Positions 4,301 to 63,043 of a stretch of 64,000 nt of DNA are shown piece after piece (positions within the stretch are counted from its first letter, which is position 1; each line of letters begins with the position of its first letter). This DNA is from Methanoculleus sp. (lineage in GTDB: Archaea; Halobacteriota; Methanomicrobia; Methanomicrobiales; Methanoculleaceae): assembly GCF_030019085.1 (NCBI RefSeq), contig NZ_JASEFJ010000002.1, positions 124,001-188,000 of the forward strand, read 5' to 3'. The position numbers were made by a program, and so were the translations under genes. The notes beneath the pieces are model-generated. The model ran no database searches. It was not told where the DNA came from and was given only the letters and a program-made list of their open reading frames with translations.

Positions 4301-4792
4301 ATGCGGGTATGGAAGTTTGGGGATGATGTCGATACGGATGCTATCATCCCCGGCAGGTTCCTGACGATCTACGATCCGGCGGAACTTGCAAAACATGTGT
4401 TTGAGGGGACGCGGGATGAGTTTGCAGTAGAGGTGCGGGAGGGTGACATTGTGGTTGCCGGCCGCAACTTCGGGTGCGGGTCCTCGCGTGAGCATGCGCC
4501 GCTTGCGCTGCTCGGTGCCGGGGTGAAGATCGTGGTAGCGAAGTCGTTTGCCCGGATCTTTTACCGGAACGCGATCAACACCGGGCTCCTGCCCCTCGTC
4601 TGTCCGGAGACCGATGCCATACAGGATGGCGAGGTCATCTCGGTGGATATCGAAGGGGGTTACATCGAGGTGAACGGGAGAAGGCTTCCGATCGAACCCG
4701 TGCCTGATTTCATGAAGAGGATCGTCGAGGCCGGTGGTCTTGTGGCCTATGCGAGGAACCTCGACGGGGTGGAGATATGCAATACCGGGTAG
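4301..4792 (+). CDS. leuD: 3-isopropylmalate dehydratase small subunit
   Basis: This 163-residue protein is the swivel-domain small subunit that partners LeuC. It begins with [20 protein letters not shown] and contains the conserved [12 protein letters not shown] segment. The substrate-specificity loop after PGR reads FLTI. In homoaconitase small subunits I recall this loop as YLRT, with an Arg that contacts the extra carboxylate; its absence here favours isopropylmalate. The start follows the leuC stop by 5 bases with GGGAGGTG just upstream as ribosome binding site. The stop overlaps the leuB start by 16 bases. Confidence 0.9.
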
Positions 4793-5898
4793 CCGCAATA
4801 GGCGGGGATGGTATAGGTCCCGAGATCATAGCAGCGGGCAGAGAGGTCCTGGACGCCGCGGGAGAGCGATATGGGTTTGATATCGACTGGACAGAGTTCG
4901 ATCTTGGCGCCGAACGTTACCTTGCAACAGGCGAACTCCTGACCGAGGATGATATCCAGGAACTCTCGAAGTTCCCGGCGATCTACTTCGGGGCGATCGG
5001 TGATGAGCGGGTGAGACCCGGGATACTGGAGAAGGGCATACTGCTTGCGATCCGGTTCCACTTCGACCAGTACATCAACCTCCGGCCTATAAGACTCCTC
5101 GAGGGTGTCGAGACGCCGCTTGCGAAGAAGCGTCCGGAGGATATCGACTTTGTGGTGGTCAGGGAGAACACCGAAGACTTCTATGTCGGGATCGGATCCA
5201 GGTTTACCGGAAGACGTGAGAAGAAGACGCTGGAGGTTCTGCGGGAGATATACAGCGTCAGGTTCGGTCTGGACGTCGAGACCGATGCCGACGAACTCGC
5301 CTACCAGATCGGTGTCATCACTCGCGAAGGGGCCGGGCGGGTCATCCGCTACGCCTTTGATCTTGCCATGCAACGGAGGAAGAAGGTCACATCGGTCGAC
5401 AAGGCAAACGTACTCTCCGACGTCTACGGTCTCTGGCGAGACGTCTTCTCGGAGGTCTCCAGGGGTTATCCGGCTGTCTCGACGGAGTTCAACTTCGTCG
5501 ACGCTGTCACGATGTGGTTCCTGAAGAACCCCGAGTGGTTCGACGTTGTTGTCACCCCGAACATGTTTGGCGATATCATCACCGATCTCGGCGCCATGAT
5601 ACAGGGCGGACTCGGTCTTGCCCCCGGCGGGAACATAAACCCCTCGGGCACTTCGATGTTTGAACCGATCCACGGTTCGGCACCGAAGTACCGCGGCCAG
5701 GACGTTGCAAACCCGCTTGCCACCGTCTGGGCGGGTTCGATGCTTCTCGATCACCTCGGCGAACACGAGGCCGCGGCGGCGGTTCTCCGGGCAATCGAAC
5801 GGAGTATCCTGGATGGTTTCGTCACCCGGGATATGGGCGGGGCGAAGAAGACGAGCGAGGTCGGGCAATACCTTGCCACGCTTATCCGGACAGTTTGA
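4777..5898 (+). CDS. leuB: 3-isopropylmalate dehydrogenase family protein
   Basis: This 373-residue beta-decarboxylating dehydrogenase oxidises 3-isopropylmalate to 2-oxoisocaproate with NAD. It shows the family start [11 protein letters not shown], the substrate-binding [13 protein letters not shown] stretch, [11 protein letters not shown], the metal-binding [16 protein letters not shown] and the NAD-binding [15 protein letters not shown]. It is longer than the roughly 330-residue archaeal LeuB and AksF that I know, and is closer in length to bacterial LeuB or tartrate dehydrogenase. Position as third gene after leuC-leuD supports LeuB; homoisocitrate dehydrogenase is the main alternative. 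Confidence 0.85.
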
Positions 5899-5930: not shown

Positions 5931-7097
5931 ATGATGATGCCAGAAGAGCAGCATACTCCATGTGAGAACCCGCTCTGGCCCTGCGCGATGACCGGTGCGG
6001 TGGCCTGCCTTGCCGGGTTTGAAGACGTTGCAGTCGTTGTCCACGGGTCAAGCGGCTGCTACTTTTACCCTGCCTCGCTCACCGGCGCTCCCATATACGG
6101 GACGTTTCTTCTCGAGAACGAGGTTATATTCGGTACGGAGTCAAGGCTGCGGGAGGTTATAGCGGGTGTAGACGACCGCTACACCAGGATAGCCGTGGTC
6201 AACACCTGTGTGCCGGCGGTCATCGGCGAGGATCTGAGCGATCTCGGCCGTGACGACCGGGTGCTATTCATCGACAGTCCCGGGTTCCTCGGCGATCTCG
6301 AGGTCGGTTACCGGAGGGCGCTTGAACGGATCTCACCGGAGGTCGACCCCGCTGCGCCGGGCGTCAACATCGACGGGATCTCTCTCACCGATCCCTTCTG
6401 CCGGGGAAACACCATCGAAGCACGACGGTTGCTCAGTCTCGCCGGTGTCTCTGTGCAGACCACGTTCTGCCTTGACCGCTACGCTGCAACCCGGCGGGCG
6501 GCGCCGTTAACCGTTGAGACGAACCCGGATCTTTCAGGCGGCATCGGCAGAACCTGTGGGTCGCTCCTCGGTCTTGACGCCGTCAGCGAGACCTTCGAGC
6601 GGCTTGCAACCGTGATCGAGGGGGTCGACGCCCGCCCGGTTGCAAAAGAGGTGGCGTGGGCTGACGCCAGGATCAGGAAGGGCTGCGACAGGTACCTGCG
6701 TCGGTTTGACCCTCCGGTGGTGGCTATCGCTGGCGGCGCCGCCTACGCGGGGTATGCCGCCAATCTTCTCGAACGATATCTCGGTGCGGATATAGCCTTT
6801 ATCGCCGCAAGGAACGACCCTGGTCCCGGAAAGACCGGTATCACCCATACGACCGACCTTGCGGTCATCCGGGAGATGATCCTGGACGCCGAACCCGATC
6901 TGATCCTTGGCTCGTCCTACGAGCAGGCGCTCGCACCTGACGCCGCGTTCGTCGGGCTGACATTTCCGCTCAGGAACAGGGTCAAACTCTCCTCCCCTGC
7001 GGTTATCGGGGTTGAGGGCGCGCTCCGGTTGATGGAGGAGGTGCTCAACGCCTGTATCGACCGACACCGGCGCAGGAGTTCCTGGCCCCGGGATTGA
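5931..7097 (+). CDS. Stand-alone nitrogenase component-1-like (NifD/NifK family) protein
   Basis: This 389-residue protein belongs to the nitrogenase component 1 superfamily. Using the ATG at 5931, it has cysteines at 11 and 18, C43 in HGSSGC and C93 in VNTCVP, matching the three cluster-ligand positions of NifD-like proteins, followed by IGEDL. It is not CfbD, because a better CfbD candidate lies beside cfbC at 9536-10600. No NifH-like reductase adjoins it, so it may borrow CfbC. It lies 32 bases after leuB on the same strand. A TTG at 5895 is possible but overlaps leuB; three tandem ATGs at 5931-5939 are likelier. Reaction unknown. Confidence 0.8.
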   Translation: MMMPEEQHTPCENPLWPCAMTGAVACLAGFEDVAVVVHGSSGCYFYPASLTGAPIYGTFLLENEVIFGTESRLREVIAGVDDRYTRIAVVNTCVPAVIGEDLSDLGRDDRVLFIDSPGFLGDLEVGYRRALERISPEVDPAAPGVNIDGISLTDPFCRGNTIEARRLLSLAGVSVQTTFCLDRYAATRRAAPLTVETNPDLSGGIGRTCGSLLGLDAVSETFERLATVIEGVDARPVAKEVAWADARIRKGCDRYLRRFDPPVVAIAGGAAYAGYAANLLERYLGADIAFIAARNDPGPGKTGITHTTDLAVIREMILDAEPDLILGSSYEQALAPDAAFVGLTFPLRNRVKLSSPAVIGVEGALRLMEEVLNACIDRHRRRSSWPRD

Positions 7098-8973: not shown

Positions 8974-9447
8974 CTATCCCCTGGTATCCTTCCCCCGCTT
9001 GATTACCAGCACGGGTTGATTTGCGTTCTTGATCACGTACTCAGAGACTGTCCCGAGGAGACGCTCACGGATGTTTGACCTGCCATGAGAGCCAAGGACT
9101 ATAAGCGATGCTCTCTCGGCATCGGCGGAGGCCACGATCTCTTTTCCAGGGTTGCCGACGGGCGTCAGGACGGTCACCTTAAAGCCCTGTTTCTCAAGCG
9201 CCCGCCGTATATCGATTATCCGGTGCTGGATCTCTGCCTGCAGTTGCTTCTGCGTCTCGGTCTCCTGGTTAGATACCGTTCCGAGGAACCCGTGGCCACC
9301 CGAGGCTATCAGCGCTACATCTTTTGAGTCGATTACGTGGACGAGGATGACCTCACGGGTTCCAGCCTCGTGAAGTGCGGGGATGTAGTCCAGAACCTTC
9401 ATGGAAGGCTCTGAGAAGTCCGTTGGAAACAGGATGCGTTCAAACAT
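8974..9447 (-). CDS. Universal stress protein, UspA family
   Basis: This 157-residue protein is a single Usp domain. It begins FERILFPTDFSEPS and near the end has the ATP-binding G-2X-G-9X-G(S/T) signature as GSHGRSNIRERLLGTVS, then NQPVLVIK. It is therefore predicted to be an ATP-binding type Usp. The ATG at 9447 is preceded by a good TATA-like element (ATTTTATAC on the minus strand, 9495-9487). Monocistronic by context. Confidence 0.92.
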   Translation of the reverse strand: MFERILFPTDFSEPSMKVLDYIPALHEAGTREVILVHVIDSKDVALIASGGHGFLGTVSNQETETQKQLQAEIQHRIIDIRRALEKQGFKVTVLTPVGNPGKEIVASADAERASLIVLGSHGRSNIRERLLGTVSEYVIKNANQPVLVIKRGKDTRG

Positions 9448-9535: not shown

Positions 9536-10600
9536 TCACCGCCCTCTCTCACGGATGAGCACCCTCCAGCGGTTCAGCATCCGCCCGACCCCCGCGGTCC
9601 CGACTGGCGGGGGGTAGGGCGAAGGGATGGCGACCCCGTCAGGGTCTATGATGAGGCCGAGGGCGTCGGCACACTCGGCGCAGATGGCCTCCACCTCCGG
9701 GTCGCCCCTGAGCATCGGATGCGGGGACTGGAAGCAGACCCGCTTCCCGGCCAGATCATCGAATCTCTCAAGCATCGCCGTCTGGTATGCCCGTTCCTCC
9801 TCGACGGCTGTCAGGGAATCGATGCCACAGACCCGGCCGACCTCTTCAAGGAACCGGCATGTCCCCCCAAGTCCAATCGGGAACGACTTGATGTAAGGTG
9901 TGCCATAACGTCGCTTGAGTTCCTCACCGACAACCCTGAGCGCAGGTTCCCGGAGGATGTTCACTGCGGCGGCACCGAGACGGCTGACATCCCGGGTCAT
10001 GATCCCCCGCACAAACCGCAGGTTGACCGGGAGCCCGAGCCTTTTTAAGAGCCGGTTGACCTCGGCGGCGTTCTCGTCGACGCCGTACTCCAGGTTCTTC
10101 TCCCCGATCAGGTTTGCCGAGATGCTCTTCTCGCTCGATGGCCTGGCAAGCGATGCGACGGCAGAGAGGGCGTTTCTTACCCCGGTCTCAAAGACGCCGC
10201 CAAGGAACCCGGCGGTCGGGATCGGGATCACCGGGACGCCCCGGTCCTTTGTGCAGACTGCCGCAACGTCATCTCCTATCGTCTCGACGATGCAGGTAGA
10301 GAGGACGAAGATGGACGCTGGTGAGAGAGCGAGCGCCTGTTCCAGGGCGGTCTCGAGGGCGTCTTCGCCCCCGAATATGATATCGTTCTCCAGCAGGTGG
10401 CTTGAGAGCAGTCGGGGGAGGTCGCCCCGGTCGTTCGAGAGATTGGTGGCGTGCAGGAGGGAGAAGTTGTGGTGGGTGCAGCCCGCCGGGCCGTGGATGA
10501 CGCAGACGGCGTCCCGCACCTCTGTAGCCACAGAGAGAGCCCCGGTCAGGGTGCAGCCCTCAAACCTGGACGAACTCGAGGGCGAAGGATTCGATCTCAT
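9536..10600 (-). CDS. cfbD: Ni-sirohydrochlorin a,c-diamide reductive cyclase subunit CfbD
   Basis: This 354-residue NifD-like protein is the catalytic half of the F430 cyclase, which reduces and cyclises Ni-sirohydrochlorin a,c-diamide. Cluster-ligand cysteines are C16 (FEGC), C41 (HGPAGC) and C103 (LSTC), followed by VETIGDDV. Its length matches known CfbD, shorter than nitrogenase NifD. It follows cfbC with a 41-base overlap on the same strand, the partner arrangement expected for CfbCD. The start at 10600 gives a Ser-rich leader and overlaps cfbC; a slightly later non-ATG start cannot be excluded. Confidence 0.9.
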
Positions 10601-11378
10601 CCATCTCCATGGGTGTGGGGATGCTTGTCATGTCGTTACCGTATACCAGCCGTGCGAGATCCCGGTAAACCCCGGCCTGCTCGGATTCAGGGGCGTACTC
10701 GATGACAGTCTGCTTCTGCAGTTCTGCAACCTGCACGATCCGCGACCGTGGGATATAGGCGATCATGCGGGAGTTGATCCGGCGGGCAAACTCCTCTACC
10801 AGTTCCCGTTCGCCCTCGATGTTCTTTGCGTTACAGATGACGCCGCCCAGGGAACACCTGCTCCGCGCCCGCCGGGATAGACGGGCGATGGCTCTGGCGA
10901 TGTTGTTTGCGGCGTAGATGGACATGAGTTCACCGGAGGTGACCAGGTAGATCTCACGGGCATAACCCTCTCGCATCGGCATCGCGAACCCCCCGCAGAC
11001 GACATCGCCCAGGACGTCATAGACTATAACGTCGCCCTTGAGGGCATCGAGGCGCTCAAGGAGCTGAAACGTCGCGATGATACCGCGCCCGGCGCAACCT
11101 ATACCAGGTTCGGGTCCCCCCGCCTCCACACACCGCACTCCCCCGAAGCCCCTGTAGACCACGTCCTCGACTGTGATGTTAGTGTCCCCGCGCTCCCGGA
11201 TGAGGTCTAGGACTGTCGGGATCCAGGTCCCGTGGACCAGCATCCGGGTGCTGTCGTGTTTTGGGTCGCAGCCGATCTGCAGGATATCGAGCCCATCCTC
11301 CGCAAGTGCTGCCGAGAGGTTTGCTGCAGTGGTGGATTTCCCGATTCCCCCTTTTCCGTAGAGGGCAATCTGTTTCAT
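10560..11378 (-). CDS. cfbC: Ni-sirohydrochlorin a,c-diamide reductive cyclase reductase CfbC (NifH-like)
   Basis: This 272-residue protein is a NifH-type iron protein that passes electrons to CfbD in F430 synthesis. The P-loop is KGGIGKST (residues 9-16). The NifH cluster ligands appear as [18 protein letters not shown] and later [18 protein letters not shown]. The ATG at 11378 fits NifH starts ([15 protein letters not shown]); an ATG at 11447 would add a poorly conserved tail. An AT-rich element, CTAATTATCC, is centred about 28 bases upstream, suggesting a leaderless transcript. Confidence 0.93.
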
Positions 11379-13933: not shown

Positions 13934-14842
13934 ATGATCACATTCCTCTCCGGCGGAACAGAAACGGCCGCGCTAATCCAGGGCTTCCGGCAGATAATGT
14001 ACGATCGCGAGATTGCCGTGGTCGCAAACACCGCCGAGGATCTTCAGGTCTCGGGGGGCCATTGTGCGCCTGACCTTGATACTGCCATCTTCCTCTTTGC
14101 GGGAATCCTGGATACCAACCGCTGGTGGGGGATAAAGGGGGACACCTACACCACCCACACATACCTCCAGAAGGTTGGGGGTGGTGAACCATTCCCTATC
14201 GGTGACCGTGCCAGAGCTGTCCAGATCGCACGGGCAGGGCTCCTATCCCGGGGACTGAGCCTGACGGAGGCGGTGGAGGTGCAGTGCCGCTCTCTCAGTA
14301 TCGGAGCGACCATCCTTCCGGCGACGGATGGAGATGCCACCATCTTCATCGACACCGGCACCGAACTCCTGCCGCTCTTTGAGTACCGGGTGACCGCCGA
14401 CCCCGCAACAGAGGTCCGCGAGGTTCTCCGGGCCGCCCCGGAACCCGCGGTGTTAACGGAGGCGGTGCGGGCGGTGATCGAGGCGAGTGAAGCCGTTGTG
14501 ATCGGGCCTGCCAGCCCTGTAAGGTGCATCCTCCCAATCCTGGACTGCGATGGTATGCGCGACCTCCTGCGCGATACGTTCGTTGTTGCGGTCTCACCAT
14601 TTAGCGGAGATGCCTGTCCTGACCCAAAGGATGTCGCGCTCATCTCCGCTGCCGGCGAAGTGCCGACCGCCCCGGCGGTCTGCCGACTTTACGGGGATCT
14701 CGTAGACCTCTTCGTCCAGGATGTCCACGACCCCGACGAAGTCAAAGGCTCGCTCCGTCTTGAGACGCGCCTCCTGCACACCCGGCAGGCGGAATCACTT
14801 GCCTGGGACGTCATGGCGGTCATACGCCAGGCGGTTTCTTGA
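13934..14842 (+). CDS. Divergent CofD-like protein
   Basis: This 302-residue protein is a paralogue of the CofD at 15340, sharing the start MITFLSGGT, the NTAEDL motif, [14 protein letters not shown] and the VVIGPASPV segment. The N-terminal substrate loop differs: GGTETAALIQG here against [11 protein letters not shown] in the neighbour, so the Gly, Pro and Lys of the canonical loop are lost. The metal-site NTAED is kept. It may be a catalytically altered or decaying copy of 2-phospho-L-lactate transferase. An AT-rich promoter-like stretch lies at about 13894-13925. The 73-bp repeat copy 2 follows its stop. Confidence 0.8.
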   Translation: MITFLSGGTETAALIQGFRQIMYDREIAVVANTAEDLQVSGGHCAPDLDTAIFLFAGILDTNRWWGIKGDTYTTHTYLQKVGGGEPFPIGDRARAVQIARAGLLSRGLSLTEAVEVQCRSLSIGATILPATDGDATIFIDTGTELLPLFEYRVTADPATEVREVLRAAPEPAVLTEAVRAVIEASEAVVIGPASPVRCILPILDCDGMRDLLRDTFVVAVSPFSGDACPDPKDVALISAAGEVPTAPAVCRLYGDLVDLFVQDVHDPDEVKGSLRLETRLLHTRQAESLAWDVMAVIRQAVS

Positions 14843-15339: not shown

Positions 15340-16242
15340 ATGATAACCTTTCTCTCGGGCGGGACCGGAACCCCAAAACTCATCCGCGGGATGCGGGACC
15401 TGCTGGAAGAACGTGAGATCGCGGTCGTCGTCAACACGGCCGAGGATCTCTGGATCACGGGGAACCATCTCTCGCCGGACATCGATACGGTCATCTACCT
15501 CTTTGCAGGTATCCTGGATACGGCCCGGTGGTGGGGGATCCGAAACGACTCATACATAACCCACGACCTCCTTAGGGCGAAGTTCGGTATCGACGAGTAC
15601 ATCGCCGTCGGCGACCAGGATAGAGCTGTCCATGCCGCTCGTGGTGAGATGCTTCGAGGTGGCATGCGGTTGACGGAGGTCACGCGTTTCCTCTGTCAGA
15701 GTCTGGGTGTGCGGGCGACCGTTCTCCCGATGACCGATTCCGTCGTGACGACCTATGTCAGCACGCCTCTCGGCGAGATGCATTTTCAGGAGTACTGGGT
15801 GAAGCACCGTGGCGAGGTGGAGATAGAGGGCGTTTACCGGAGATACGACGAACCACCTCTCGCCACACGGGAGGTTATAGATACGATCGAGGCGAGCGAT
15901 GCTGTGGTGATCGGTCCAAGTAACCCGGTTACGAGCATATCACCGATCCTTGAGTGCAGCGGGGTGCGGGAGGCGTTACGCCGTCAGCATGTCATCGCCG
16001 TCAGTCCGTTCATCGGGGATGCCCCCGTGAGCGGGCCGGCAGCGGCGCTGATGCGCGCCTTCGGGAGGGAACCCTCTTCGGCCGGAACATACGGTCTCTA
16101 CGAAGACTTCCTGGATATCTTCATCCAGGACGTCCGTGACCCGGTCGAGATTGAGGGGGCGTTGAGGATGGATACGCTCATGGTCAATCGTGGCAAGAGC
16201 CTCGACCTTTCAAAGAACATCCTTAACCTGATATATGGGTGA
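15340..16242 (+). CDS. cofD: 2-phospho-L-lactate transferase CofD
   Basis: This 300-residue protein transfers the phospholactyl-type moiety from its guanosine-diphosphate carrier to Fo, giving F420-0 in coenzyme F420 synthesis. The N-terminal loop [11 protein letters not shown], the NTAEDL metal motif, [14 protein letters not shown] and [12 protein letters not shown] are all canonical. It is the likely functional copy next to the divergent paralogue at 13934 and the CofA-type dehydrogenase on the opposite strand. The ATG at 15340 follows an AT-rich stretch; no strong ribosome site is seen, suggesting a short leader. Confidence 0.92.
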
Positions 16243-52571: not shown

Positions 52572-53102
52572 ATGGGACTGAAGGCCGGTCCTACACAGGA
52601 CGAAGTCATGGCTGTCTCGCTTGCAAAACTCGGCATCCGGCCGGGCGACCGGGTGGTCGACGTGGGCTGCGGGACCGGAAAAGTTTCCATCGCTGCCTCG
52701 AGGACGGCCGGGACTGTCTATGCAATCGACCGTCGGGCTGAGGCGGTCGCCTACGCCCGGCAGGAGGCCGCTGCTGCCGGTGCCGGGAACATTGAGTTCC
52801 TGGAGGGCGATGCGGTGGACGTCCTCCCCAAACTCGGACCGCTCGACGCCGCCTTTGTCGGTGGGTCGCGCCGCCTCCCGGAGGTGCTCGAGATCCTGGC
52901 ACGGATGGTGCGGGGTAGGATCGTCGTGAACGCGGTGATGGTCGGGACGCTTAATGAGGCCATAGTGAGCATGCAGCGCCTCGGGATCTTTATCGAGGCC
53001 GTTCATCTCCAGGTCTCCAGGTCGGCCGGGATCGCCGGCGGGGTTATGTTCAAACCGCTGAACCCGGTCTACATCATCGTGGGGGGTTCAGGATGCTCGT
53101 AG
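52572..53102 (+). CDS. cbiT: Cobalt-precorrin-6B decarboxylase/C15-methyltransferase CbiT
   Basis: This 176-residue SAM-dependent enzyme decarboxylates the acetate side chain at C12 and methylates C15 of the corrin ring in the anaerobic pathway. It starts GLKAGPTQDEVMAVSLAKLG and has the SAM-binding VVDVGCGTGKVSIAAS. It opens the cbiT-L-F-G-H-C-D-E operon and overlaps cbiL by 10 bases. An AT-rich promoter lies 30-45 bases upstream. Confidence 0.93.
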   Translation: MGLKAGPTQDEVMAVSLAKLGIRPGDRVVDVGCGTGKVSIAASRTAGTVYAIDRRAEAVAYARQEAAAAGAGNIEFLEGDAVDVLPKLGPLDAAFVGGSRRLPEVLEILARMVRGRIVVNAVMVGTLNEAIVSMQRLGIFIEAVHLQVSRSAGIAGGVMFKPLNPVYIIVGGSGCS

Positions 53103-53710
53103 GCGTGGGGCTCGGGCCTGGCGACCCGGAACTCCTGACTCTGCGGGCGGTCAGGCTACTTCGAGAGGCGGATGTGGTCTTCGTCCCCGGCAAACTGGCC
53201 TGCGACCTGGTCAGGCCATACCGGGCCGATGCGGTCATCCTTAAATTCCCGATGACGAACGACGAGGGCTACATCCGGAGGTGTCTTGAGGAGAACGCCG
53301 ACCTGATTGCTCCTCACGCCATGGAAGGGCTTGCGGTCTTCGGGATCCTTGGCGACCCGAACTTCTACTCGACCTTCTCCCGACTCAGTGAGGTGATTGC
53401 AGAGCGGCATCCCGGCGTCTCGTTTGCGACCGAACCGGGGGTCAGTTCCATCACGGCGTTTGCCTCGGTGGCAAATGTCCCGGTCTCCGGGCGGGTTCTG
53501 GTCTCGGACGGGAACGGCCCGGAGTCAAGGGTCTTCATGAAGGTCCGGCGACCGGCAGCGCTCGCGGCTGACCTGAGAGAGGAGGGGTTCTCAGAGTTCG
53601 TGCTGGTGGAACGGATGTTCATGCCAGAAGAGCGGGTTTATCGGGGAGACGAACTTCCCGGGGAGAGTGACTACTTCTCGATCCTGTTTGCGAGACGGTC
53701 TTATGGGTAA
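53093..53710 (+). CDS. cbiL: Cobalt-factor II C20-methyltransferase CbiL
   Basis: This 205-residue tetrapyrrole methylase has the N-terminal GVGLGPGDPELLTLRAVRLL, GILGDPNFYSTFSRL and EPGVSSITAFAS, typical of the C20-methylating enzyme. It overlaps cbiT and cbiF by 10 and 8 bases, respectively, so translation is coupled along the operon. Confidence 0.93.
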   Translation: MLVGVGLGPGDPELLTLRAVRLLREADVVFVPGKLACDLVRPYRADAVILKFPMTNDEGYIRRCLEENADLIAPHAMEGLAVFGILGDPNFYSTFSRLSEVIAERHPGVSFATEPGVSSITAFASVANVPVSGRVLVSDGNGPESRVFMKVRRPAALAADLREEGFSEFVLVERMFMPEERVYRGDELPGESDYFSILFARRSYG

Positions 53711-54419
53711 GGTCTACATGGTGGGCGCGGGGCCGGGGGCGCCCGACCTGATCACTGTCAGGGGGATGGACCTGCTCCGGAAGGCGGATGTCCTCATATA
53801 CGCGGGCTCGCTTGTGAACCCGGTGCTCGTTGAGGAGTCGGGCGCGGCACTGAAACTCGACAGCCAGAGTATGAAACTTGATGAGATCGTCGGTGCGATC
53901 GAGGAGCATGTCCGCGCCGGGAGACTTGTTGTCAGGCTCCATTCTGGCGATCCGTCGCTCTACGGTGCGATAGTCGAGCAGATGGCCGAGCTTGAGCGCC
54001 GGGGGATCGAGGCCGAGATCGTGCCCGGGGTCTCGTCGCTCTTTGCGGCCTCGGCGGCTCTAAAGACGCAGTTTACCCTCCGAGATGTCTCCGATAGTCT
54101 GGTGATCACCCGACCGGCGGGGGCGACGCTTGAACGTGACCTGATCCCGGAGTTCTCCCGGCTCGGCCAGACGATGGTGGTATTCCTCGGAACAGAACGG
54201 ATGGAGGAGGTCCTTGCCAGGGTCGAGTGCCCGCCAGAGACCCCGGCGGCGGTCGTCTACCACGCATCCTGGCCGGACGAGAAGGTCGTCCGGGGAACGG
54301 TGGCCGATATCGCCAGGAAGGCCCGTGCTGCCGGGATCGAGCGGACGGCGCTGATAATCATCGGCAAGGTGGTGGACCCGACAACATCGGGGTTCGGGAG
54401 GTCGGTCCTCTACTCATGA
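53703..54419 (+). CDS. cbiF: Cobalt-precorrin-4 C11-methyltransferase CbiF
   Basis: This 238-residue methylase shows MVGAGPGAPDLITVRGMDLL, YAGSLVNPVLV, VRLHSGDPSLYGAIVEQM and the C11-type EIVPGVSSLFAASAALK. Length and motif order match CbiF/CobM. The ATG at 53703 lies inside the end of cbiL. It overlaps cbiG by 4 bases (ATGA). Confidence 0.94.
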   Translation: MGKVYMVGAGPGAPDLITVRGMDLLRKADVLIYAGSLVNPVLVEESGAALKLDSQSMKLDEIVGAIEEHVRAGRLVVRLHSGDPSLYGAIVEQMAELERRGIEAEIVPGVSSLFAASAALKTQFTLRDVSDSLVITRPAGATLERDLIPEFSRLGQTMVVFLGTERMEEVLARVECPPETPAAVVYHASWPDEKVVRGTVADIARKARAAGIERTALIIIGKVVDPTTSGFGRSVLYS

Positions 54420-55288
54420 CCGGGACTGTCGTGGTCGCGCTCGACCGGTTCCTCCCTTCCGCCCGCCGGATCGCCGAAGCGCTGGGTGCCGATCTGGTTC
54501 CCTACACCTCTGAGGTCTTCGCGGAGGTGTTCGGCCGATACGACCGGATCGTTGCCTTGATGTCGGCCGGGATCGCCGTCAGGGGGGTTGCACCGCTCCT
54601 GGTCGATAAGTGGCGCGACCCTGCGGTGGTGGTTGTGAGCCCCGATCTCCGTTACGCCGTCCCGATCGTCGGTGGACATCACGGCGGAAACGATCTTGCC
54701 CGGGAACTTGCCATGACCGGGATCACGCCGGTGATCACGACTGCGACCGAGACGCAGGGCCGCGACTCTGTCGAGGGGATTGCCGCCCGGTCGGGCTACG
54801 ATATTGTGAACCGCGACTCCACCAGGGTGGTGAACGCCGCGATGCTCGATTCGGATCTGCCCCTCTACGACATCCGGGGCCCCGCGATCGTCGTTGCGGG
54901 GCCGGGAGTCTCCATCCTCGTCAGGAAAGGGGATTACGTTGTCGGTATCGGTTGCCGGAAGGGCACTTCTTCCACCGTGGTTGCCGGAGCGCTGCGGCAG
55001 GCGCTGGAATGGGCCAGGATCGCGCCCGAAGACGTTCTTGTCTACGCAACGACCGTGAAGAAACGGGGGGAGACGGGTCTACGTGATGCAGTCGCGGAAC
55101 TCGGCGGCAACCTGGTCTACTTAGACGACGATACCCTGAACGCCCAGAGCGCGCCATCCCCCTCGCGGGCGCCTTTGATCGGGCTGTCTGGGGTTGCGGA
55201 ACCTGCGGCTCTTGCGATCTCGAAGCGAAAAGAACTGGTTCTTGCCAAACAGACCTATGGGTGTGTTACCGTTGCAATCGCACGATAA
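54416..55288 (+). CDS. cbiG: Cobalt-precorrin-5A hydrolase CbiG
   Basis: This 290-residue protein opens the delta-lactone ring of cobalt-precorrin-5A and releases acetaldehyde, the hallmark of the anaerobic route. Visible parts are LMSAGIAVRGVAPLLVDKWRDP, VVSPDLRYAVPIVGGHHGGN and a C-terminal domain with VGIGCRKGTS. The starting ATG overlaps the cbiF stop; the end overlaps the beginning of cbiH. Confidence 0.93.
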   Translation: MTGTVVVALDRFLPSARRIAEALGADLVPYTSEVFAEVFGRYDRIVALMSAGIAVRGVAPLLVDKWRDPAVVVVSPDLRYAVPIVGGHHGGNDLARELAMTGITPVITTATETQGRDSVEGIAARSGYDIVNRDSTRVVNAAMLDSDLPLYDIRGPAIVVAGPGVSILVRKGDYVVGIGCRKGTSSTVVAGALRQALEWARIAPEDVLVYATTVKKRGETGLRDAVAELGGNLVYLDDDTLNAQSAPSPSRAPLIGLSGVAEPAALAISKRKELVLAKQTYGCVTVAIAR

Positions 55289-56051
55289 AAAAGGTAAGTT
55301 GTACATTGTCGGCACGGGCCCTGGCGACCTGCTGCACATAACCCCGAGGGCGCTGAAAGCTCTGGCCGAGGCCGATTGCGTCATCGGTAACGGGATCTAC
55401 CTTGACCTGGTGATGCCGGTGATCGCTGGCAAAGAGGTCATCCGGAGCAGCATGGGCCGGGAGGTCGAGCGGGCCTCGCGGGCGCTCGACCTTGCCCGTG
55501 ACCGCACGGTTGCGATGGTGAGCGGTGGCGATGCCGGGGTGTATGGGATGGCGAGCATAGTCCTGGAGGTGGCCGAACGTTCGGGTTCGACGGTCGAGAT
55601 CGAGGTGGTGCCGGGGATCACGGCCTCTCTCTCGGCGGCGGCACGACTTGGTTCGCCGTTATCGGGGGACTATGTCACGATTAGTCTATCGGATCTCCTG
55701 ACGCCCCTGGAGGAGATCGAGCGGAGGCTTGACCTTGCGTTCCAGATGGGGGTGCCGGTTGTACTATATAATCCCCGTTCCAGGGGACGGCCGCACAACC
55801 TGGAAGTGGCGATCGAGATTGCCCGCCGCCACCTCCCGGAGGAGACGCCGGTCGGGGTGGTCAGGAACGCCTACCGGGATGGAGAGGAGCGCCTTATAAC
55901 GACGCTCGGGGAGTTTGATGAGCATATCGGATTTGTGGATATGCACTCGATCGTCTTTGTTGGCGGAGAGGAGACACGGATCTGGAGGAATGAGGTTGAT
56001 GCGAGAGGGATCATCACACCACGGGGATACCACCGGAAGTACGTATACTGA
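55257..56051 (+). CDS. cbiH: Cobalt-factor III C17-methyltransferase CbiH
   Basis: This 264-residue methylase carries out ring contraction and C17 methylation. It reads YIVGTGPGDLLHITPRALKALAEAD, VSGGDAGVYGMASIVLEVAE and VVPGITASLSAAARLGSPL, then VLYNPRSRGRPHNLEVAIEI. The chosen ATG (MGVLPLQSHDKKGK) lies inside cbiG; TTG or GTG codons a few bases later are possible alternatives since the conserved core starts about 15 residues in. Confidence 0.9.
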   Translation: MGVLPLQSHDKKGKLYIVGTGPGDLLHITPRALKALAEADCVIGNGIYLDLVMPVIAGKEVIRSSMGREVERASRALDLARDRTVAMVSGGDAGVYGMASIVLEVAERSGSTVEIEVVPGITASLSAAARLGSPLSGDYVTISLSDLLTPLEEIERRLDLAFQMGVPVVLYNPRSRGRPHNLEVAIEIARRHLPEETPVGVVRNAYRDGEERLITTLGEFDEHIGFVDMHSIVFVGGEETRIWRNEVDARGIITPRGYHRKYVY

Positions 56052-56679
56052 CCTTGCGGCGGTCACCCCGGAGGCTTATGCGATAGCGAGCGCGAGCAGG
56101 AACCTGGCGCGGGAAAAGGTGGGGAACGCCACGCCCGAGGACAGGATCCGGCAGCGGTGCTCGATCGCGGTCGGCGATTTTGCGATGGCCGATCTGATGC
56201 GGTTCTCCGGCGATCCGATCGAGGCCGGGATCGCAGCGCTTGAACGTCGGGCACCCATAATTGTCGATATCCGGATGGTGCAGGCGGGGATATTGAGATG
56301 GGGACATTCAAGTGAGATCGTGTGTGCCCTGGACCACGGTGAGGAGATCGCGATGGAGCGCGGGATCACCAGGACGTCGGCGGGGTTCTTTGCCCTGCGG
56401 GATCGGCTGGAGGGTTCGATTGTGGTCATAGGGAACGCTCCATCGGCGCTTCTCGTCGTCTGCGGGATGATACGGGAGGGTATCCATCCGGCGCTGGTCG
56501 TCGGGACGCCGGTGGGGTTTGTGAACGCTGCGGAGTCAAAAGAGGAACTCCGCGCCATTGGTATCCCCTCGGTCTCGAACATCGGTACCCGTGGGGGGAC
56601 GCCGGTAGCGGTTGCGGCGGTAAATGAGATCATCACGATCTATGCCGAGCGTGGAGGTCATGCGCGACCCGGTCACTGA
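55999..56679 (+). CDS. cbiC: Cobalt-precorrin-8 methylmutase CbiC
   Basis: This 226-residue enzyme moves the methyl group from C11 to C12. The conserved RQRCSIAVGDFAMADL-type region (residues around 55-75), DIRMVQAGI, RTSAGF, IVVIGNAPSALL and GTPVGFVNAAESKEEL are all present. ATG 55999 has GGAGG about 10 bases before it; ATG 55990 is too close to that site. It overlaps cbiH by 53 bases and cbiD by 20. Confidence 0.92.
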   Translation: MREGSSHHGDTTGSTYTDLAAVTPEAYAIASASRNLAREKVGNATPEDRIRQRCSIAVGDFAMADLMRFSGDPIEAGIAALERRAPIIVDIRMVQAGILRWGHSSEIVCALDHGEEIAMERGITRTSAGFFALRDRLEGSIVVIGNAPSALLVVCGMIREGIHPALVVGTPVGFVNAAESKEELRAIGIPSVSNIGTRGGTPVAVAAVNEIITIYAERGGHARPGH

Positions 56680-57673
56680 GTTCGAGTATCCAGATGAGTG
56701 GGTTGCAGCCTGCCGCTCTCCGGAACTCCTCGACGACGTCCAGCGTGGTCTTGCGGTTCTGACGGCCTCGGGTCTGGTCTTACGGCGGGGGTTCTCGACG
56801 GGGACGACGGCTGCGGCGGCCTGTAAGGCGGCGATCCTCTCGCTTGCTCTTGATACCGTTAAGGAGGTGGAGGTCGGTCTGCCATGCGGCATTGCTGTCA
56901 GGCTTCCGGTGGACGCATATCGGGGTCAGGCGTCGTGCTGGAAGGACGCGGGAGACTACACCTCGGACGTGACCGGAGGGCTTGAGTTCGTCGCGACGGC
57001 AGCACCCTCTCTCAATGAGGGCGGTCGTTTCGTCCCCGGGGAGGGTATCGGGAGTTTTGCCCGCGACACCCCACGCCACCGCCAGGGGACGGCGGCGATC
57101 AGCGAACCGGCGCTTGAGTGTATCAGGCGCTCGATCGATGAGGCGATGGAGGAGACCGGGTTGTCCGGAGTGACGGTCATCCTCACCGTGCCGCGGGGGG
57201 CGGAGGTGGCGCAGAAGACGTTGAACCCTAAGGTCGGGGTGCACGGCGGGATATCGGTGCTCGGGACTACCGGACTTGTTGAGCCATGGGACGACCACGT
57301 GACGGAGGGGGTTCTCGACCGGGTTACACGCTCCGATGCGGTGGTGCTGACGACCGGACGGCTCGGGCTGCGATACTCCCGGCTTTTATTCCCGGAACGT
57401 GAGGCGATCCTGGTGGGGAACCACCTCGCTGAAGCGCTCGAGGTGGTCGCAGGTGGTGATCCGATCATCTGTGGGTTGCCGGGCCTGATCCTGAGGTTCA
57501 TGAACCCGCACATCCTTGATGGGACTGGCTGTGCGACGGTGGAGGAACTGCTGGCGACCTCCGGGGGGAGGGAGGTGCTCCGCCGCGAACTTGAGGCGTT
57601 CCGGTCGCGCTACCCCAACGTCAGGGTCGTGATCGTCGACCGCAGTGGCCGGGTTATTGGTGAATCGCCATGA
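56660..57673 (+). CDS. cbiD: Cobalt-precorrin-5B C1-methyltransferase CbiD
   Basis: This 337-residue enzyme methylates C1 in the anaerobic corrin pathway. It shows LRRGFSTGTTAAAACKAA, the TLNPKVGVHGGISVLGTTG stretch, TTGRLGLRY and GNHLAEALE. I prefer ATG 56660 because the family begins with DPVTxFxYPxxWV; ATG 56642 would add six residues. GGAGGT lies close before 56660. The stop overlaps cbiE by 4 bases. Confidence 0.93.
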   Translation: MRDPVTEFEYPDEWVAACRSPELLDDVQRGLAVLTASGLVLRRGFSTGTTAAAACKAAILSLALDTVKEVEVGLPCGIAVRLPVDAYRGQASCWKDAGDYTSDVTGGLEFVATAAPSLNEGGRFVPGEGIGSFARDTPRHRQGTAAISEPALECIRRSIDEAMEETGLSGVTVILTVPRGAEVAQKTLNPKVGVHGGISVLGTTGLVEPWDDHVTEGVLDRVTRSDAVVLTTGRLGLRYSRLLFPEREAILVGNHLAEALEVVAGGDPIICGLPGLILRFMNPHILDGTGCATVEELLATSGGREVLRRELEAFRSRYPNVRVVIVDRSGRVIGESP

Positions 57674-58254
57674 AGATAGTCGGTGTTGGCTGCGGGCCCG
57701 GGATGCTGACGGCGGAGGCGGTGAGGGTTCTTGAGGATGCGATGCTTGTCTATGGGTCTGCGAGGGCGATCGCGCTTGCCAGGGACGCCATCCCGCCGGG
57801 GTGTGAGGTGCACGGGATCACGGATTACCGGAACCTGCGCTCGCTCCCGGGTCATGCGGTCGTCCTCTCGACGGGCGACCCGATGCTTGCGGGGCTCGGG
57901 TCGCTCCTGGAGGGGGAGGTCATACCGGGTATCTCATCACTCCAGGTCGCGTTTGCCAGGCTCAGGCTTCCGCTCGCGAGGGCGGCGGTCATCCCGGCGC
58001 ACGGGAAGGATCATGACCGGGCTATCGCCAGCGCCCTGGAAGAGATAGAGAGGGGGCGGGTTGTCTTCCTCATCGCCGACCCTGGCTTCGAGGTTGAGGT
58101 GCTCGCGGCTCTCCTCCCGCTGGCAACCCGGATCGCCGTCTGCGAGGATCTGGGTTACCTGACGGAGCGGATCGCCGTCGGGACGGCGGGAGAGCCTCCG
58201 CTGCCCCGGGGGGATCTCTTTGTGGTGGTGGCGTGGGGTGAGGCGGTACGCTGA
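57670..58254 (+). CDS. cbiE: Cobalt-precorrin-7 C5-methyltransferase CbiE
   Basis: This 194-residue methylase has VGVGCGPGMLTAEAVRVLEDA, VVLSTGDPMLAGLG and EVIPGISSLQVAFARL. It is the last gene of the cbi operon. No cbiJ (reductase), cbiA (amidase) or late nucleotide-loop genes are here, so these must be elsewhere. It faces the DNA methyltransferase gene with 7 bases between stops. Confidence 0.92.
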   Translation: MKIVGVGCGPGMLTAEAVRVLEDAMLVYGSARAIALARDAIPPGCEVHGITDYRNLRSLPGHAVVLSTGDPMLAGLGSLLEGEVIPGISSLQVAFARLRLPLARAAVIPAHGKDHDRAIASALEEIERGRVVFLIADPGFEVEVLAALLPLATRIAVCEDLGYLTERIAVGTAGEPPLPRGDLFVVVAWGEAVR

Positions 58255-59447: not shown

Positions 59448-60230
59448 TTGAGGCTGCTTCTGAAACTCAGGGCGGAAGCTGATCAGAAAGATGTATCACT
59501 TGATTATAACAAACTCCAGGGGTTTGTCTATCGCCTGCTCCAAGAGAGTGGCTACCCAGGTATCCACGACAAAGAGGGCTACAAATACTTCTGTTTCTCA
59601 AACGTTTTCCCATTTGGCGACATGAAAACCGGTGATATCAGGAATTTCATTATAGCCTCGCCGAACCGCAACCTCATCGAAGAGATTGCGAGGCACCTTG
59701 CGACCGTTAAGGATAACCCGATCCACATCGGAGACTGTACCTTCTCTTTATACGGTTCCAGCGGTTTTAACCTCACCATACCCCCAGCACCGCTACGAAT
59801 AGCCTCCGCAACACCGATCATCATCCGGATCCCTGAGTACAATTATGATCTTTACAATTTGCCGCCTGACGAACGTAAACCCAGATACGTCTACTGGCGT
59901 CCGGCAATATCATTCGACGCTTTCGTCAAGCAACTCTCGGAGAACCTCGTCAAGAAATACAATAAGTATTACGGTACGGAGATTGAGGTAACAAACCTTT
60001 TTGAGCAGTTTTTCTTCCGAAAATCGGTGCACACGCGTTTAATCATCGATGGAAAGAGTTACGGTGTTGCTGCAAGCATGTGGGAGTTCTCCTGGAATTA
60101 TCTGAGCCCCACTCAGAAACAGGTCATCGAGTTTGGTCTGGATGCGGGTTTTGGAGAGAGAAATACTTTTGGGTTCGGGTTTGTGAACTTCATTAAGCCC
60201 CAAAATACGTTGCCTCATGCTAATCGATAA
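59448..60230 (+). CDS. cas6: CRISPR-associated endoribonuclease Cas6
   Basis: This 260-residue RAMP protein cuts pre-crRNA. It ends with the glycine-rich loop GFGERNTFGFGFVNF, the Cas6 hallmark, and has two ferredoxin-like halves. It starts with TTG, supported by GGTGAGG four bases upstream. It is on the opposite strand to the other cas genes and overlaps the end of cas3 by 11 bases. Base composition is visibly more AT-rich than the cbi genes. The catalytic residue is not obvious. Confidence 0.9.
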   Translation: MRLLLKLRAEADQKDVSLDYNKLQGFVYRLLQESGYPGIHDKEGYKYFCFSNVFPFGDMKTGDIRNFIIASPNRNLIEEIARHLATVKDNPIHIGDCTFSLYGSSGFNLTIPPAPLRIASATPIIIRIPEYNYDLYNLPPDERKPRYVYWRPAISFDAFVKQLSENLVKKYNKYYGTEIEVTNLFEQFFFRKSVHTRLIIDGKSYGVAASMWEFSWNYLSPTQKQVIEFGLDAGFGERNTFGFGFVNFIKPQNTLPHANR

Positions 60231-62415
60231 AAGCCCCGGGATCGCGCTCTTCAACCAGCAATCCGAGATCACTGTCATATCTAGCGTTCACAAAGAGCAT
60301 TCCCTCTGTTGTGGAGATGCGCCCCTCTTCCTTCAGACGATGATACTGACCACGGCTGAGAGGGAGGGTATATTGCATTGCTCCATAGAAATCTCCTGCC
60401 TGGATATGGTCGAGGTAATCTGTCCGGAACTTCTCGGGTACAACTTCAAATGAGTTGAAAAGTCTATAGAAGTCATCATCAGTCCGTTCCGCGTCTGAAA
60501 ACGGAATGATCTCTTCTATTACGCGTGGAAACGTTTTTCTTACATCGCGGAACAGTTTCTCGTCATTTCCAAAACCGTTCCGATATATCTTATCTGTTAT
60601 ATCCTGTAACACCCACTCGTGCAACAGATCCAGATCCCCCAGTTCTTCCAGCGTACGTTCAACGAGGAGATCGTCATAGACGAACCTGTCCTGCTCTGAC
60701 CCTCTCGTGAATACGTATACTCGGCACACATCCTCCCTGCGTCTCCTGTTGATCCGCCCAAATCGCTGAACGAGAGCATCGATTGGAGCCGGTTCGGTGT
60801 AACAGACGTCATAATCGATATCCAGGGATACCTCTATCGCCTGAGTTCCGACAAGCAGGTCGAGCGAGTCCACCTCTCTCTCTATCTTTTCCCGATCTCC
60901 CAGGGTAAATCTTGAGTGCAGAAGCCTTGAACTGGGTTTTATCCCCTTGAGGCTGTTGTAGACTCGCTGGGCCTGTTTCACCGTATTGCAGACGACGAGA
61001 ACCTTCTCATCACCCCGGAGCGTGTTTTTTATTTCTTCGATGTGATCGCAGATATCTCCATCAAGAAGCGAGCATTCGTGCCGTGTATATCCAGAAAGTT
61101 CGGGTTTACCCATCGTGAGGAGATTCGAAATACCGAGGGAATCTGCAAATATATCCCTGATAAATCCGGGCAACGTTGCTGACATAAGAAGAATCCTTGC
61201 ATCAAGTTTGTTCTTGACGAATTCGGACATCGAAAGGATAAGGCCGACCGTCCTCGCGTCGTAGGCGTGAATCTCGTCAAGGATGAATGATCCCTGATAC
61301 ATCTCCAGAAGCCCCATCTCGTAGCCCTTGATATAGAACAGGTGTTTCAGTGACTGGTATGGTGTCATTATCTTGTAAGGACTGTAGATCTTCTTTGCTA
61401 CATCACGCAGAAACCGCGATTCCTTGGCGTCATCATACATCTTCGAGAGGTAATACGATGCTTTTCCGTGAAGGAGCGAGACGCAGCCATCATCTTTGTA
61501 GTAGGGGGTGAGGCGGCCGGAGAGACGCTGATACATGGCGTTGATGCTTGCGGTGTAAGGGAGCAAATAAAATATTCTGTTTCCTTTGGCTTGATTGAGG
61601 TTGTTAGTCGCCCAGAAGAGCGCTGCTTCGGTCTTTCCCGATCCCGTTGGCGAAATTACAATGGCATCCCCTTTTGTCTCCCTGCACCTTTGCTGGATGC
61701 TGGTGTAGGTCGGATACGTAAACACGGCGTCAAGTGATGGCAGGGGTTTGAGCACCTTTCTGACACCCCCTGAGGCCAGATAATCACAGGTATTGATAGA
61801 ACCCTTTCCAAAGATTCCCACATACTTCAACCTTTGTTTGCACCTATCGTCCCTGAGACATTTTGAGGTGGACTGTATGATATGCTCCCATGATTCATCG
61901 GTGCATTGTGTGAGATCGATAGGGCGAAGATCTGCTGGTTCTCCGAAGTAGTGATTCATCAATCGTGGGTATTCCTTCAGAATCCCGGAAAGTTTCTGCA
62001 AGTTTGGTATGATCTCTGCAAGATACTCCTTGAATGGCGAACCGCAAAAAAGCTCATCCTCCGGGTCTCCGGTGTATCTGGCGAGTTCTCTGAGATCTTT
62101 GTGATGGGTGAGGACAAACAACTTTACCAGGTCGGTATCTCCGGTAGGAAGTGCATCCACAAAGGGAACCGAGAGGATCTCGTGGCGATAATGCCATTTT
62201 TTCCCGCCGTTCAATTGCTCCTGGAAGCCTGTGGCTGCTTTTCCAAAATCGTGAAAGAAGAGGGCGTTAAAGATGGTTTTGTAAAATTCGGGGCAACCGA
62301 TTTTTTCACCGATGTCCGGGTAACACTCCCTTAACGATGAGAATACGGAGAGGCAGGCGAAGGTATGCGCCTCGAGGGTCTCACCAGTGGTCTTGGCTTT
62401 AATCCCGGAAGTCAT
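60220..62415 (-). CDS. cas3: CRISPR-associated helicase/nuclease Cas3
   Basis: This 731-residue protein joins an HD nuclease (LEAHTFA with H17, FFHDFGKA with H55 and D56, LTHHKD) to a superfamily 2 helicase (VISPTGSGKTEAAL, FILDEIHAYD as DEIH box, LLMSATLPG, VGTQAIEVSLDIDYD, QRFGRINRR). It degrades DNA recruited by Cascade. The start at 62415 overlaps the cas5 stop by 17 bases; further upstream ATGs are less likely. Order cas7-cas5-cas3 fits type I-B. Confidence 0.95.
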   Translation of the reverse strand: MTSGIKAKTTGETLEAHTFACLSVFSSLRECYPDIGEKIGCPEFYKTIFNALFFHDFGKAATGFQEQLNGGKKWHYRHEILSVPFVDALPTGDTDLVKLFVLTHHKDLRELARYTGDPEDELFCGSPFKEYLAEIIPNLQKLSGILKEYPRLMNHYFGEPADLRPIDLTQCTDESWEHIIQSTSKCLRDDRCKQRLKYVGIFGKGSINTCDYLASGGVRKVLKPLPSLDAVFTYPTYTSIQQRCRETKGDAIVISPTGSGKTEAALFWATNNLNQAKGNRIFYLLPYTASINAMYQRLSGRLTPYYKDDGCVSLLHGKASYYLSKMYDDAKESRFLRDVAKKIYSPYKIMTPYQSLKHLFYIKGYEMGLLEMYQGSFILDEIHAYDARTVGLILSMSEFVKNKLDARILLMSATLPGFIRDIFADSLGISNLLTMGKPELSGYTRHECSLLDGDICDHIEEIKNTLRGDEKVLVVCNTVKQAQRVYNSLKGIKPSSRLLHSRFTLGDREKIEREVDSLDLLVGTQAIEVSLDIDYDVCYTEPAPIDALVQRFGRINRRRREDVCRVYVFTRGSEQDRFVYDDLLVERTLEELGDLDLLHEWVLQDITDKIYRNGFGNDEKLFRDVRKTFPRVIEEIIPFSDAERTDDDFYRLFNSFEVVPEKFRTDYLDHIQAGDFYGAMQYTLPLSRGQYHRLKEEGRISTTEGMLFVNARYDSDLGLLVEERDPGAFID

Positions 62416-63040
62416 GTAGATACACACCCACATTCCGCTCAGGGTCAAGGTATCCGGGTGAAATCGTCTGTGGTGAGTCCACGATACAGTATGGCATCAC
62501 TCTCAACGGTCTTCGCTCGGCCTCGTCGGTGAAGTCTGAGGGCAGGGAGATGACCTGGCCGGGTAGATCACCGGTGAATGGAACGATCGTGTTCTGGATC
62601 TCGATACTTTCCTGTTCGATGAGTGTAACGGGTTCCAGTGCTTCAACCCATGCGAGGTCGGATTGGCGTCCAAGGAGCAGATTATAACGGGGTCGCTTTA
62701 GATATTCCCTAAAACCCATGTCAGTAAGGTAGAGGGTCAATGTACAGTTATAGAGGAACTCGCGGTTGATTATATCCGTGCCCTGGAACGTAGCGGGTCT
62801 GGTTTGCTTTGCATCTCCATAGATATGGACGCGTTCAAGATCGAGTCCACTTCCATCTGCAACAAAGTCGTAGCCGATCTGCAGATCCTGAAGATGCACT
62901 TTCTCTCCCTTTGCCGCCGAGAGGAGCCCATAAACTGTTGAAATGGGTGGAACCGGATAAGTCGGTTGGTATCCAACAATAAACATGGGGTAGCGGAAGG
63001 AGGCGGTCATAGCCCGTATTGTAGCACGGAGAACATCCAT
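62399..63040 (-). CDS. cas5: CRISPR Cascade subunit Cas5 (type I-B)
   Basis: This 213-residue RAMP protein binds the 5' end of crRNA in Cascade. It begins with RATIRAMTASFRYPMFIVGYQPTYPVPPISTVYGLLSAAKG, a typical Cas5 start: two strands followed by a PP-S-x-YGLLSAA helix. The central YLKRPRYNLLLGRQSDLAWV segment fits Cas5t/Tneap forms. It is 3 bases downstream of cas7. Confidence 0.9.
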   Translation of the reverse strand: MDVLRATIRAMTASFRYPMFIVGYQPTYPVPPISTVYGLLSAAKGEKVHLQDLQIGYDFVADGSGLDLERVHIYGDAKQTRPATFQGTDIINREFLYNCTLTLYLTDMGFREYLKRPRYNLLLGRQSDLAWVEALEPVTLIEQESIEIQNTIVPFTGDLPGQVISLPSDFTDEAERRPLRVMPYCIVDSPQTISPGYLDPERNVGVYLHDFRD

Positions 63041-63043
63041 CCT

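Follow-up and report, generated by a model that had tools for sequence, protein, structure and literature searches.

What does a nitrogenase-like protein do in a methanogen when its gene follows those of leucine biosynthesis? The question is raised by an open reading frame of a Methanoculleus species, located in a 64,000-nucleotide stretch of its genome that was analysed as a whole and is called the window below. The original prediction took the product for a stand-alone NifD-like protein, encoded after leuCDB with no reductase gene beside it, and regarded a second nitrogenase-like protein, encoded from position 9536, as CfbD of the Ni-sirohydrochlorin a,c-diamide reductase. A different picture emerges from the follow-up: the protein, termed N1, is one half, the beta or K-type subunit, of a nitrogenase-like reductase built from two different subunits, and the protein encoded from 9536, termed N2, is its partner. 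The genes concerned are these:

4777 to 5898, plus strand: leuB-type isopropylmalate dehydrogenase, upstream neighbour of N1 (family match, synteny).
5931 to 7097, plus strand: N1, NifK-type (beta) nitrogenase-like subunit, 388 amino acids (family match, K-side clade, structural model).
8974 to 9447, minus strand: UspA-like gene, which separates N2 from N1 solely in the Methanoculleus family (synteny).
9536 to 10600, minus strand: N2, NifD/E-type (alpha) subunit, 354 amino acids, third domain shortened (NifE score, D-side clade).
10560 to 11378 (longest open reading frame to 11447), minus strand: H, NifH/CfbC-type reductase, overlapping N2 (match to NF033200).

Subunit identity of N1 and N2

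The N1 open reading frame is intact, and its third ATG, at 5937, may be the true start. The product matches the nitrogenase component 1 family PF00148 at 133 bits, from position 1 to 398 of a 399-position profile, and N2 matches it at 192 bits (cut-off 28.6). Among the curated families, both proteins score far below the cut-offs of NifD, NifK, NifE and NifN, and those of BchN, BchB, BchY and BchZ are not reached either; the closest family is nifK for N1 (65 bits, with NifE and CfbD far below their cut-offs) and NifE for N2 (121 bits, below cut-off). AlphaFold2 models of N1 (pLDDT 90, pTM 0.89) and N2 (pLDDT 90, pTM 0.88) match nitrogenase beta subunits, NifEN and the BchB subunit of DPOR. The N1 model has a TM score of about 0.8 (query length) to NifK and BchB, and the best PDB matches of the N2 model include the BchB chain of DPOR, at a TM score of about 0.7.

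In a tree of 70 proteins, composed without Mar, Isr or Bch sequences, N2 falls on the D/E side (support 100/99) and N1 on the K side (100/100), while CfbD forms a separate clade (100/100). Family scores and trees thus agree in placing N1 with NifK, and not with NifD as had been proposed. Within these sides, N2 and the D domain of a group of NifH-D fusion proteins are sisters (100/99), as are N1 and the K partners of those fusions (100/96), a mirrored placement that a jointly inherited D:K pair would give. Pairing of N1 with N2 is very probable.

The same evidence separates both proteins from CfbD. As originally held, N1 and the protein encoded from 9536 are different proteins, of different clades, and N1 is a nitrogenase-like subunit with conserved cluster cysteines that is not CfbD: it scores 45.1 bits against TIGR03282, the CfbD family (cut-off 268.4), and a placement inside the CfbD clade did not occur. 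The identification of N2 as CfbD, by comparison, fails on both counts, with 44.8 bits against the same cut-off and a position outside the CfbD clade. The true CfbD of this genome scores 501.5 bits and is encoded on another contig (C33, L005:12976-14040), beside genes that by inspection are of the cfbA, cfbE and cfbB types. A separate observation concerns the surroundings of cfbD: in the Methanomicrobiales regions examined (L138, L142, L147, L154, L171-L175) it has no adjoining NifH gene, unlike in the majority of the phylum's other sampled genomes, where a NifH gene is next to it. The gene beside cfbC in Methanomicrobiales is easily misread as cfbD.

PF00148 proteins number four in this genome, namely N1, N2, CfbD and a further NifD/E-like protein, N3, encoded near the cfb cluster on contig C33 (L005:9372-10619). 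N3 keeps the three P-cluster cysteine positions and, in addition, a Cys and a His at the positions equivalent to the NifD cofactor ligands C275 and H442. No K-type partner was found beside its gene, and only about one in four Methanomicrobiales genomes has a full-length orthologue.

The H-N2-N1 operon and its displacement

The impression that N1 stands alone dissolves once other genomes are considered. Its partner N2 is nearby in the window, and the N2 and NifH-type genes, which lie 2.4 to 4.3 kb away on the opposite strand, are adjacent to N1 in nearly all other genera; the supposed lack of a reductase gene is likewise particular to this arrangement. Both genes were located at 106 loci, which are not independent species since several genomes are counted twice. 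At 82 of them N2, itself behind H, immediately precedes N1 on one strand; at nine the two share a strand but are separated, and at 15 they lie on opposite strands. The order H, N2, N1 on one strand, with the genes overlapping or touching, recurs in some 30 genera and constitutes a conserved operon. Synteny, co-loss and trees concur that its adjacent NifH, D-type and K-type genes are inherited together, as expected of a heteromeric HDK system. The N2-N1 pair is present in two copies in the Methanoregula MAG OWC_0051 (L209, L225) and also in G109.

Separation of N2 from N1 is a novelty of the Methanoculleus family that arose by insertion of the UspA-like gene followed by inversion. At five loci of the family (L101, L102, L103, L180 and L203) the UspA-like gene sits between N2 and N1 with all genes collinear, and in much of Methanoculleus (L130, L184-L200 and the window) the N1 segment is inverted relative to H-N2 and now lies behind leuB. 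The position after leuB was correctly noticed, this gene preceding N1 on the same strand at a distance of 32 bp in the window, but the link does not extend across genomes. The two genes are on opposite strands at 62 loci and on the same strand at 20, all of them Methanoculleus-type, and a gap of about 90 bp or less occurs at only seven of these 20; in other genera, leuB either converges on N1 or lies farther off. Because the same-strand arrangement is restricted in this way, the leuB-N1 link is secondary and does not reflect an ancestral operon. A stand-alone NifD-like enzyme tied to leucine biosynthesis, as the tight same-strand spacing in the window might recommend, is scarcely credible given that N1 elsewhere follows N2 and that its proximity to leuB is a Methanoculleus-only rearrangement, and a role of N1 in leucine metabolism was set aside for this reason. 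A promoter and terminator scan returned no more sites than shuffled sequences did and carries no information on co-transcription, and a PADLOC search for defence systems gave no match. The usual neighbours of H-N2-N1 look by inspection like TrkH, phosphoribulokinase, desulfoferrodoxin and FprA; tetrapyrrole genes were not found directly beside it.

Distribution, co-loss and the probable electron donor

Orthologues of N1, defined by E values below 1e-30 (weaker matches being paralogues), were found in 141 of 150 Methanomicrobiales genomes and in 106 of the 108 good ones (about 98%), and N2 is matched in 105 of these 108 (E below 1e-30, with a few weak matches). When an N1 profile was run over 394 genomes of the phylum, 81 of the 83 genomes belonging to the order scored at least 428 bits, and the best score outside the order was 119 bits. 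N1 is thus near-universal in Methanomicrobiales, and no other member of the phylum sample has it. In a scan of 84,980 bacterial and archaeal species, one genome each, the titles of the best 80 of 150 loci name Methanomicrobiales genera or, for a few, only Euryarchaeota. Such a distribution is unusual, in that N2:N1 is part of the core equipment of an entire order of methanogens, small-genome members included, yet is missing elsewhere in the phylum sample, and it speaks for a metabolic step, particular to this order, that has yet to be described. Nitrogenase-like clades that await characterisation are an acknowledged gap, and no description of an H-N2-N1 operon in Methanomicrobiales was found in the open-access literature searched.

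The few exceptions are informative. Two genomes that are 99% complete, G047 and G149, lack both N1 and N2 and keep H at 66-67% identity, and no N2-N1 remnants were found beside H in either. An assembly gap is an unlikely explanation here, as H is present without N2:N1 beside it; for G112 and G110, which lack H as well, an assembly gap is likely. The joint loss of N1 and N2, with H retained, speaks for the two subunits being one unit and for a second job of H, presumably with CfbD. It follows also that N2-N1 is not strictly essential in the order.

H itself scores 420.7 bits against the CfbC family NF033200, above the cut-off of 402, and related H proteins score 406-418. It is the only NifH in this genome (G000), other matches being distant P-loop proteins, and the only one at E values of 1e-20 or below in G003 and G019. 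The H clade groups weakly with NifH (87/81), and a tree constrained to unite it with CfbC proteins from other orders is marginally rejected (p-AU 0.043). The suggestion that CfbC acts as electron donor gains from the CfbC-type H being the sole NifH of this genome: H is quite likely the donor of N2:N1, and one NifH probably serves two partners, CfbD and N2:N1. A donor in common with CfbD also invites the thought that N2:N1 has a part, next to CfbD, in the synthesis or modification of F430 or of an F430 variant, the more so as H sits with N2:N1 and not with cfbD in Methanomicrobiales, as opposed to the pairing of NifH with cfbD in the majority of the phylum's other sampled members. This is rather improbable, however, when a complete CfbD is present together with cfbA, cfbE and cfbB, and when G047, which lacks N2:N1, retains both CfbD and H.

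Cluster ligands, relatives and the proposed reaction

The original prediction counted three cluster-type cysteines in N1, C43, C93 and one of an N-terminal pair, and alignment bears this out. The N-terminal member is C18, and the three align with the P-cluster ligands of NifK (C70, C95 and C153 of the A. vinelandii protein), with C11 as a further conserved cysteine. Their codons are as follows:

5961 to 5963, plus strand: C11, extra conserved cysteine (35 of 36 and 49 of 50 orthologues).
5982 to 5984, plus strand: C18, equivalent of C70, the first P-cluster cysteine of NifK (36 of 36; alignment).
6057 to 6059, plus strand: C43, equivalent of the second, C95 (36 of 36; alignment).
6207 to 6209, plus strand: C93, equivalent of the third, C153 (36 of 36; alignment).

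In the first set examined, 36 orthologues from about 30 genera, C18, C43 and C93 are invariant, and they are kept in 49-50 of the 50 orthologues of a second set, so that no loss of ligands was seen; C26, by comparison, is kept in 24 of 36. On the N2 side, C16, C41 and C103 align with the P-cluster ligands of NifD and are invariant in 36 of 36 orthologues, the second set agreeing. All six P-cluster cysteine positions are accordingly kept in N2:N1, three per subunit as in NifDK of Mo-nitrogenase, and the D/E and K/N sides of NifDK and NifEN correspond to N2 and N1. The difference lies in the cofactor site. None of the aligned N2 orthologues has a cysteine at the Cys275 position of NifD and NifE, and the third domain is short, so the combination of Cys275 and His442 that holds the cofactor in the alpha subunit of NifDK does not occur in N2. 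The likely consequence is that N2:N1 operates without an active-site metallocluster.

The missing cysteine is also the one that holds the precursor cluster in NifE, which weighs on the idea that N2:N1 is a NifEN-like scaffold or maturase handling an Fe-S cluster, for example the L-type clusters of the MCR activation complex. The best family score of N2 is with NifE, L-type clusters have recently been found in the MCR activation complex (PMC12176620), and N2:N1 is near-universal in an order of methanogens, all of which would suit a scaffold. Yet the cysteine in question is absent from every aligned N2, though N3 of the same genome keeps one, and other methanogens of the phylum manage without N2:N1; a scaffold function seems quite unlikely.

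DPOR (BchL with BchN-BchB) resembles the present system in the fold of its subunits, in its separate H, D and K components and, probably, in its lack of a metallocofactor; N2:N1 is nonetheless not recovered as BchN/BchB by family cut-offs, and its six cysteines contrast with the three cysteines and one aspartate that ligate the DPOR cluster. CfbC/CfbD, for which the same NifH-type donor is probably used, contributes a superfamily member from the same genome, but CfbD forms homodimers, has two of the cysteines and occupies a clade of its own. The MarHDK and IsrHDK systems, compared outside the tree, share the HDK organisation and P-cluster-type cysteines with H-N2-N1. Mar keeps an [Fe8S9C] cofactor (PMC12552129), the cysteine ligand of which is missing in N2. 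By its description, N2:N1 fits the class of nitrogenase-like pairs reported, from archaea among others, by Dos Santos et al. 2012 (PMC3464626), in which each subunit has three P-cluster cysteines and a cofactor ligand is missing, a cysteine pattern identical to that found here.

The closest relatives in the tree are the NifH-NifE fusions with NifN-like partners, systems that were noted in the same study (PMC3464626). Like N2:N1, they comprise a two-subunit D:K core with a NifH part, and their D subunit also lacks the cofactor cysteine; unlike N2:N1, they have NifH fused to D, a K subunit in which some P-cluster cysteines are lost (by alignment) and a scattered distribution, in 21 of the 394 phylum genomes, as opposed to a separate H, six retained cysteines and order-wide occurrence. 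Fusion loci in G149, G043, G360, G428 and G066 have CobN, a ChlI/D-type ATPase and a FecBCD-type transporter nearby, and a CbiK-type chelatase was confirmed at four fusion loci and CbiZ at two. Other fusion loci have the transporter only, and many have none of CobN, ChlI/D and FecBCD. Such neighbours suggest tetrapyrrole uptake or remodelling. Fusion and NifK genes beside CobN, ChlI/D, CbiK, CbiZ and FecBCD genes were seen at L145, L285, L293, L297 and others. Further NifH-D-K sets, directly after FecCD-like and ABC-ATPase genes, occur at L153 (G030) and L146 (G149) and resemble the Methanocorpusculum Mlab_1039/1040 type of Dos Santos et al. (PMC3464626).

By analogy with DPOR, N2:N1 and H might form an ATP-dependent, DPOR-like tetrapyrrole reductase whose donor H is common to CfbD, a proposal for which the chances appear about even. 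Reduced H would dock on a heterotetramer, (N2:N1)2, hydrolyse ATP and deliver electrons one at a time to an Fe-S cluster at the N2:N1 interface, for which each subunit would provide three cysteine ligands. This cluster would then reduce a bound organic substrate directly, with no metallocofactor, because the cysteine that anchors the FeMo-cofactor or L-cluster in NifD and NifE is gone from N2. H would serve CfbD in F430 synthesis as well. The substrate would most plausibly be a tetrapyrrole or metallotetrapyrrole that is made or modified in nearly all Methanomicrobiales. The main ground for a tetrapyrrole, an indirect one, is the neighbourhood of the sister fusion system, with its CobN, ChlI/D, FecBCD, CbiK and CbiZ genes; against it stand the many fusion loci of family f8 genomes at which no chelatase or transporter neighbours were seen, and the fact that no tetrapyrrole gene adjoins H-N2-N1 itself. 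On balance, a tetrapyrrole substrate is evenly poised.

The lack of adjacent tetrapyrrole genes would sit more easily with another small molecule, such as a pterin, or a sulfur compound of the kind used by Mar and Isr, and substrates in the superfamily are indeed diverse, including methylthio-alkanes and isethionate (PMC12552129, PMC11423573). This is unlikely all the same, in view of the absence from N2 of the ligand that Mar uses and of the fusion-system neighbours, which point to tetrapyrroles. Among tetrapyrrole reactions, a replacement of CbiJ, the precorrin-6A reductase of the cobalamin pathway, deserves mention: the chemistry, reduction of one C=C bond in the macrocycle, would fit an enzyme like DPOR, and CbiJ was undetected in all 150 genomes of the order, most of which have CbiC. 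However, CbiJ is absent from all 394 phylum genomes, most of them without N2:N1, and G047 has CbiC and neither CbiJ nor N2:N1. Left without specific support, the replacement was rejected as very unlikely. The window also holds a cobalamin cluster at 52572-58254, with genes of the cbi T, L, F, G, H, C, D and E types by inspection and no cbiJ seen.

Returning to the DPOR-like tetrapyrrole reductase, the clusters of DPOR and CfbD are held by fewer than six cysteines. As six are available here, the cluster of N2:N1 may be a true P-cluster and not a simple [4Fe-4S] cluster. Conceivably, H-N2-N1 is a hitherto unassigned tetrapyrrole reductase, present in nearly all Methanomicrobiales, for the synthesis or recycling of a reduced metallotetrapyrrole peculiar to the order; its cluster would be of the true P-cluster type, an active-site metallocofactor would be lacking, and one NifH would serve both CfbD and N2:N1. 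In this complete form the proposal is tentative and somewhat doubtful. Six P-cluster cysteine positions without a cofactor ligand are useful for understanding how nitrogenase separated from the tetrapyrrole reductases, and N2:N1 is small and conserved enough for direct testing.

Elsewhere in the window, two similar tandem proteins, encoded at 13934-14842 and 15340-16242, look by inspection like CofD of F420 synthesis. Genes resembling Cas6, Cas3, Cas5 and Cas7 of a type I CRISPR system, again by inspection, occupy 59448-63868, up to the window's end.
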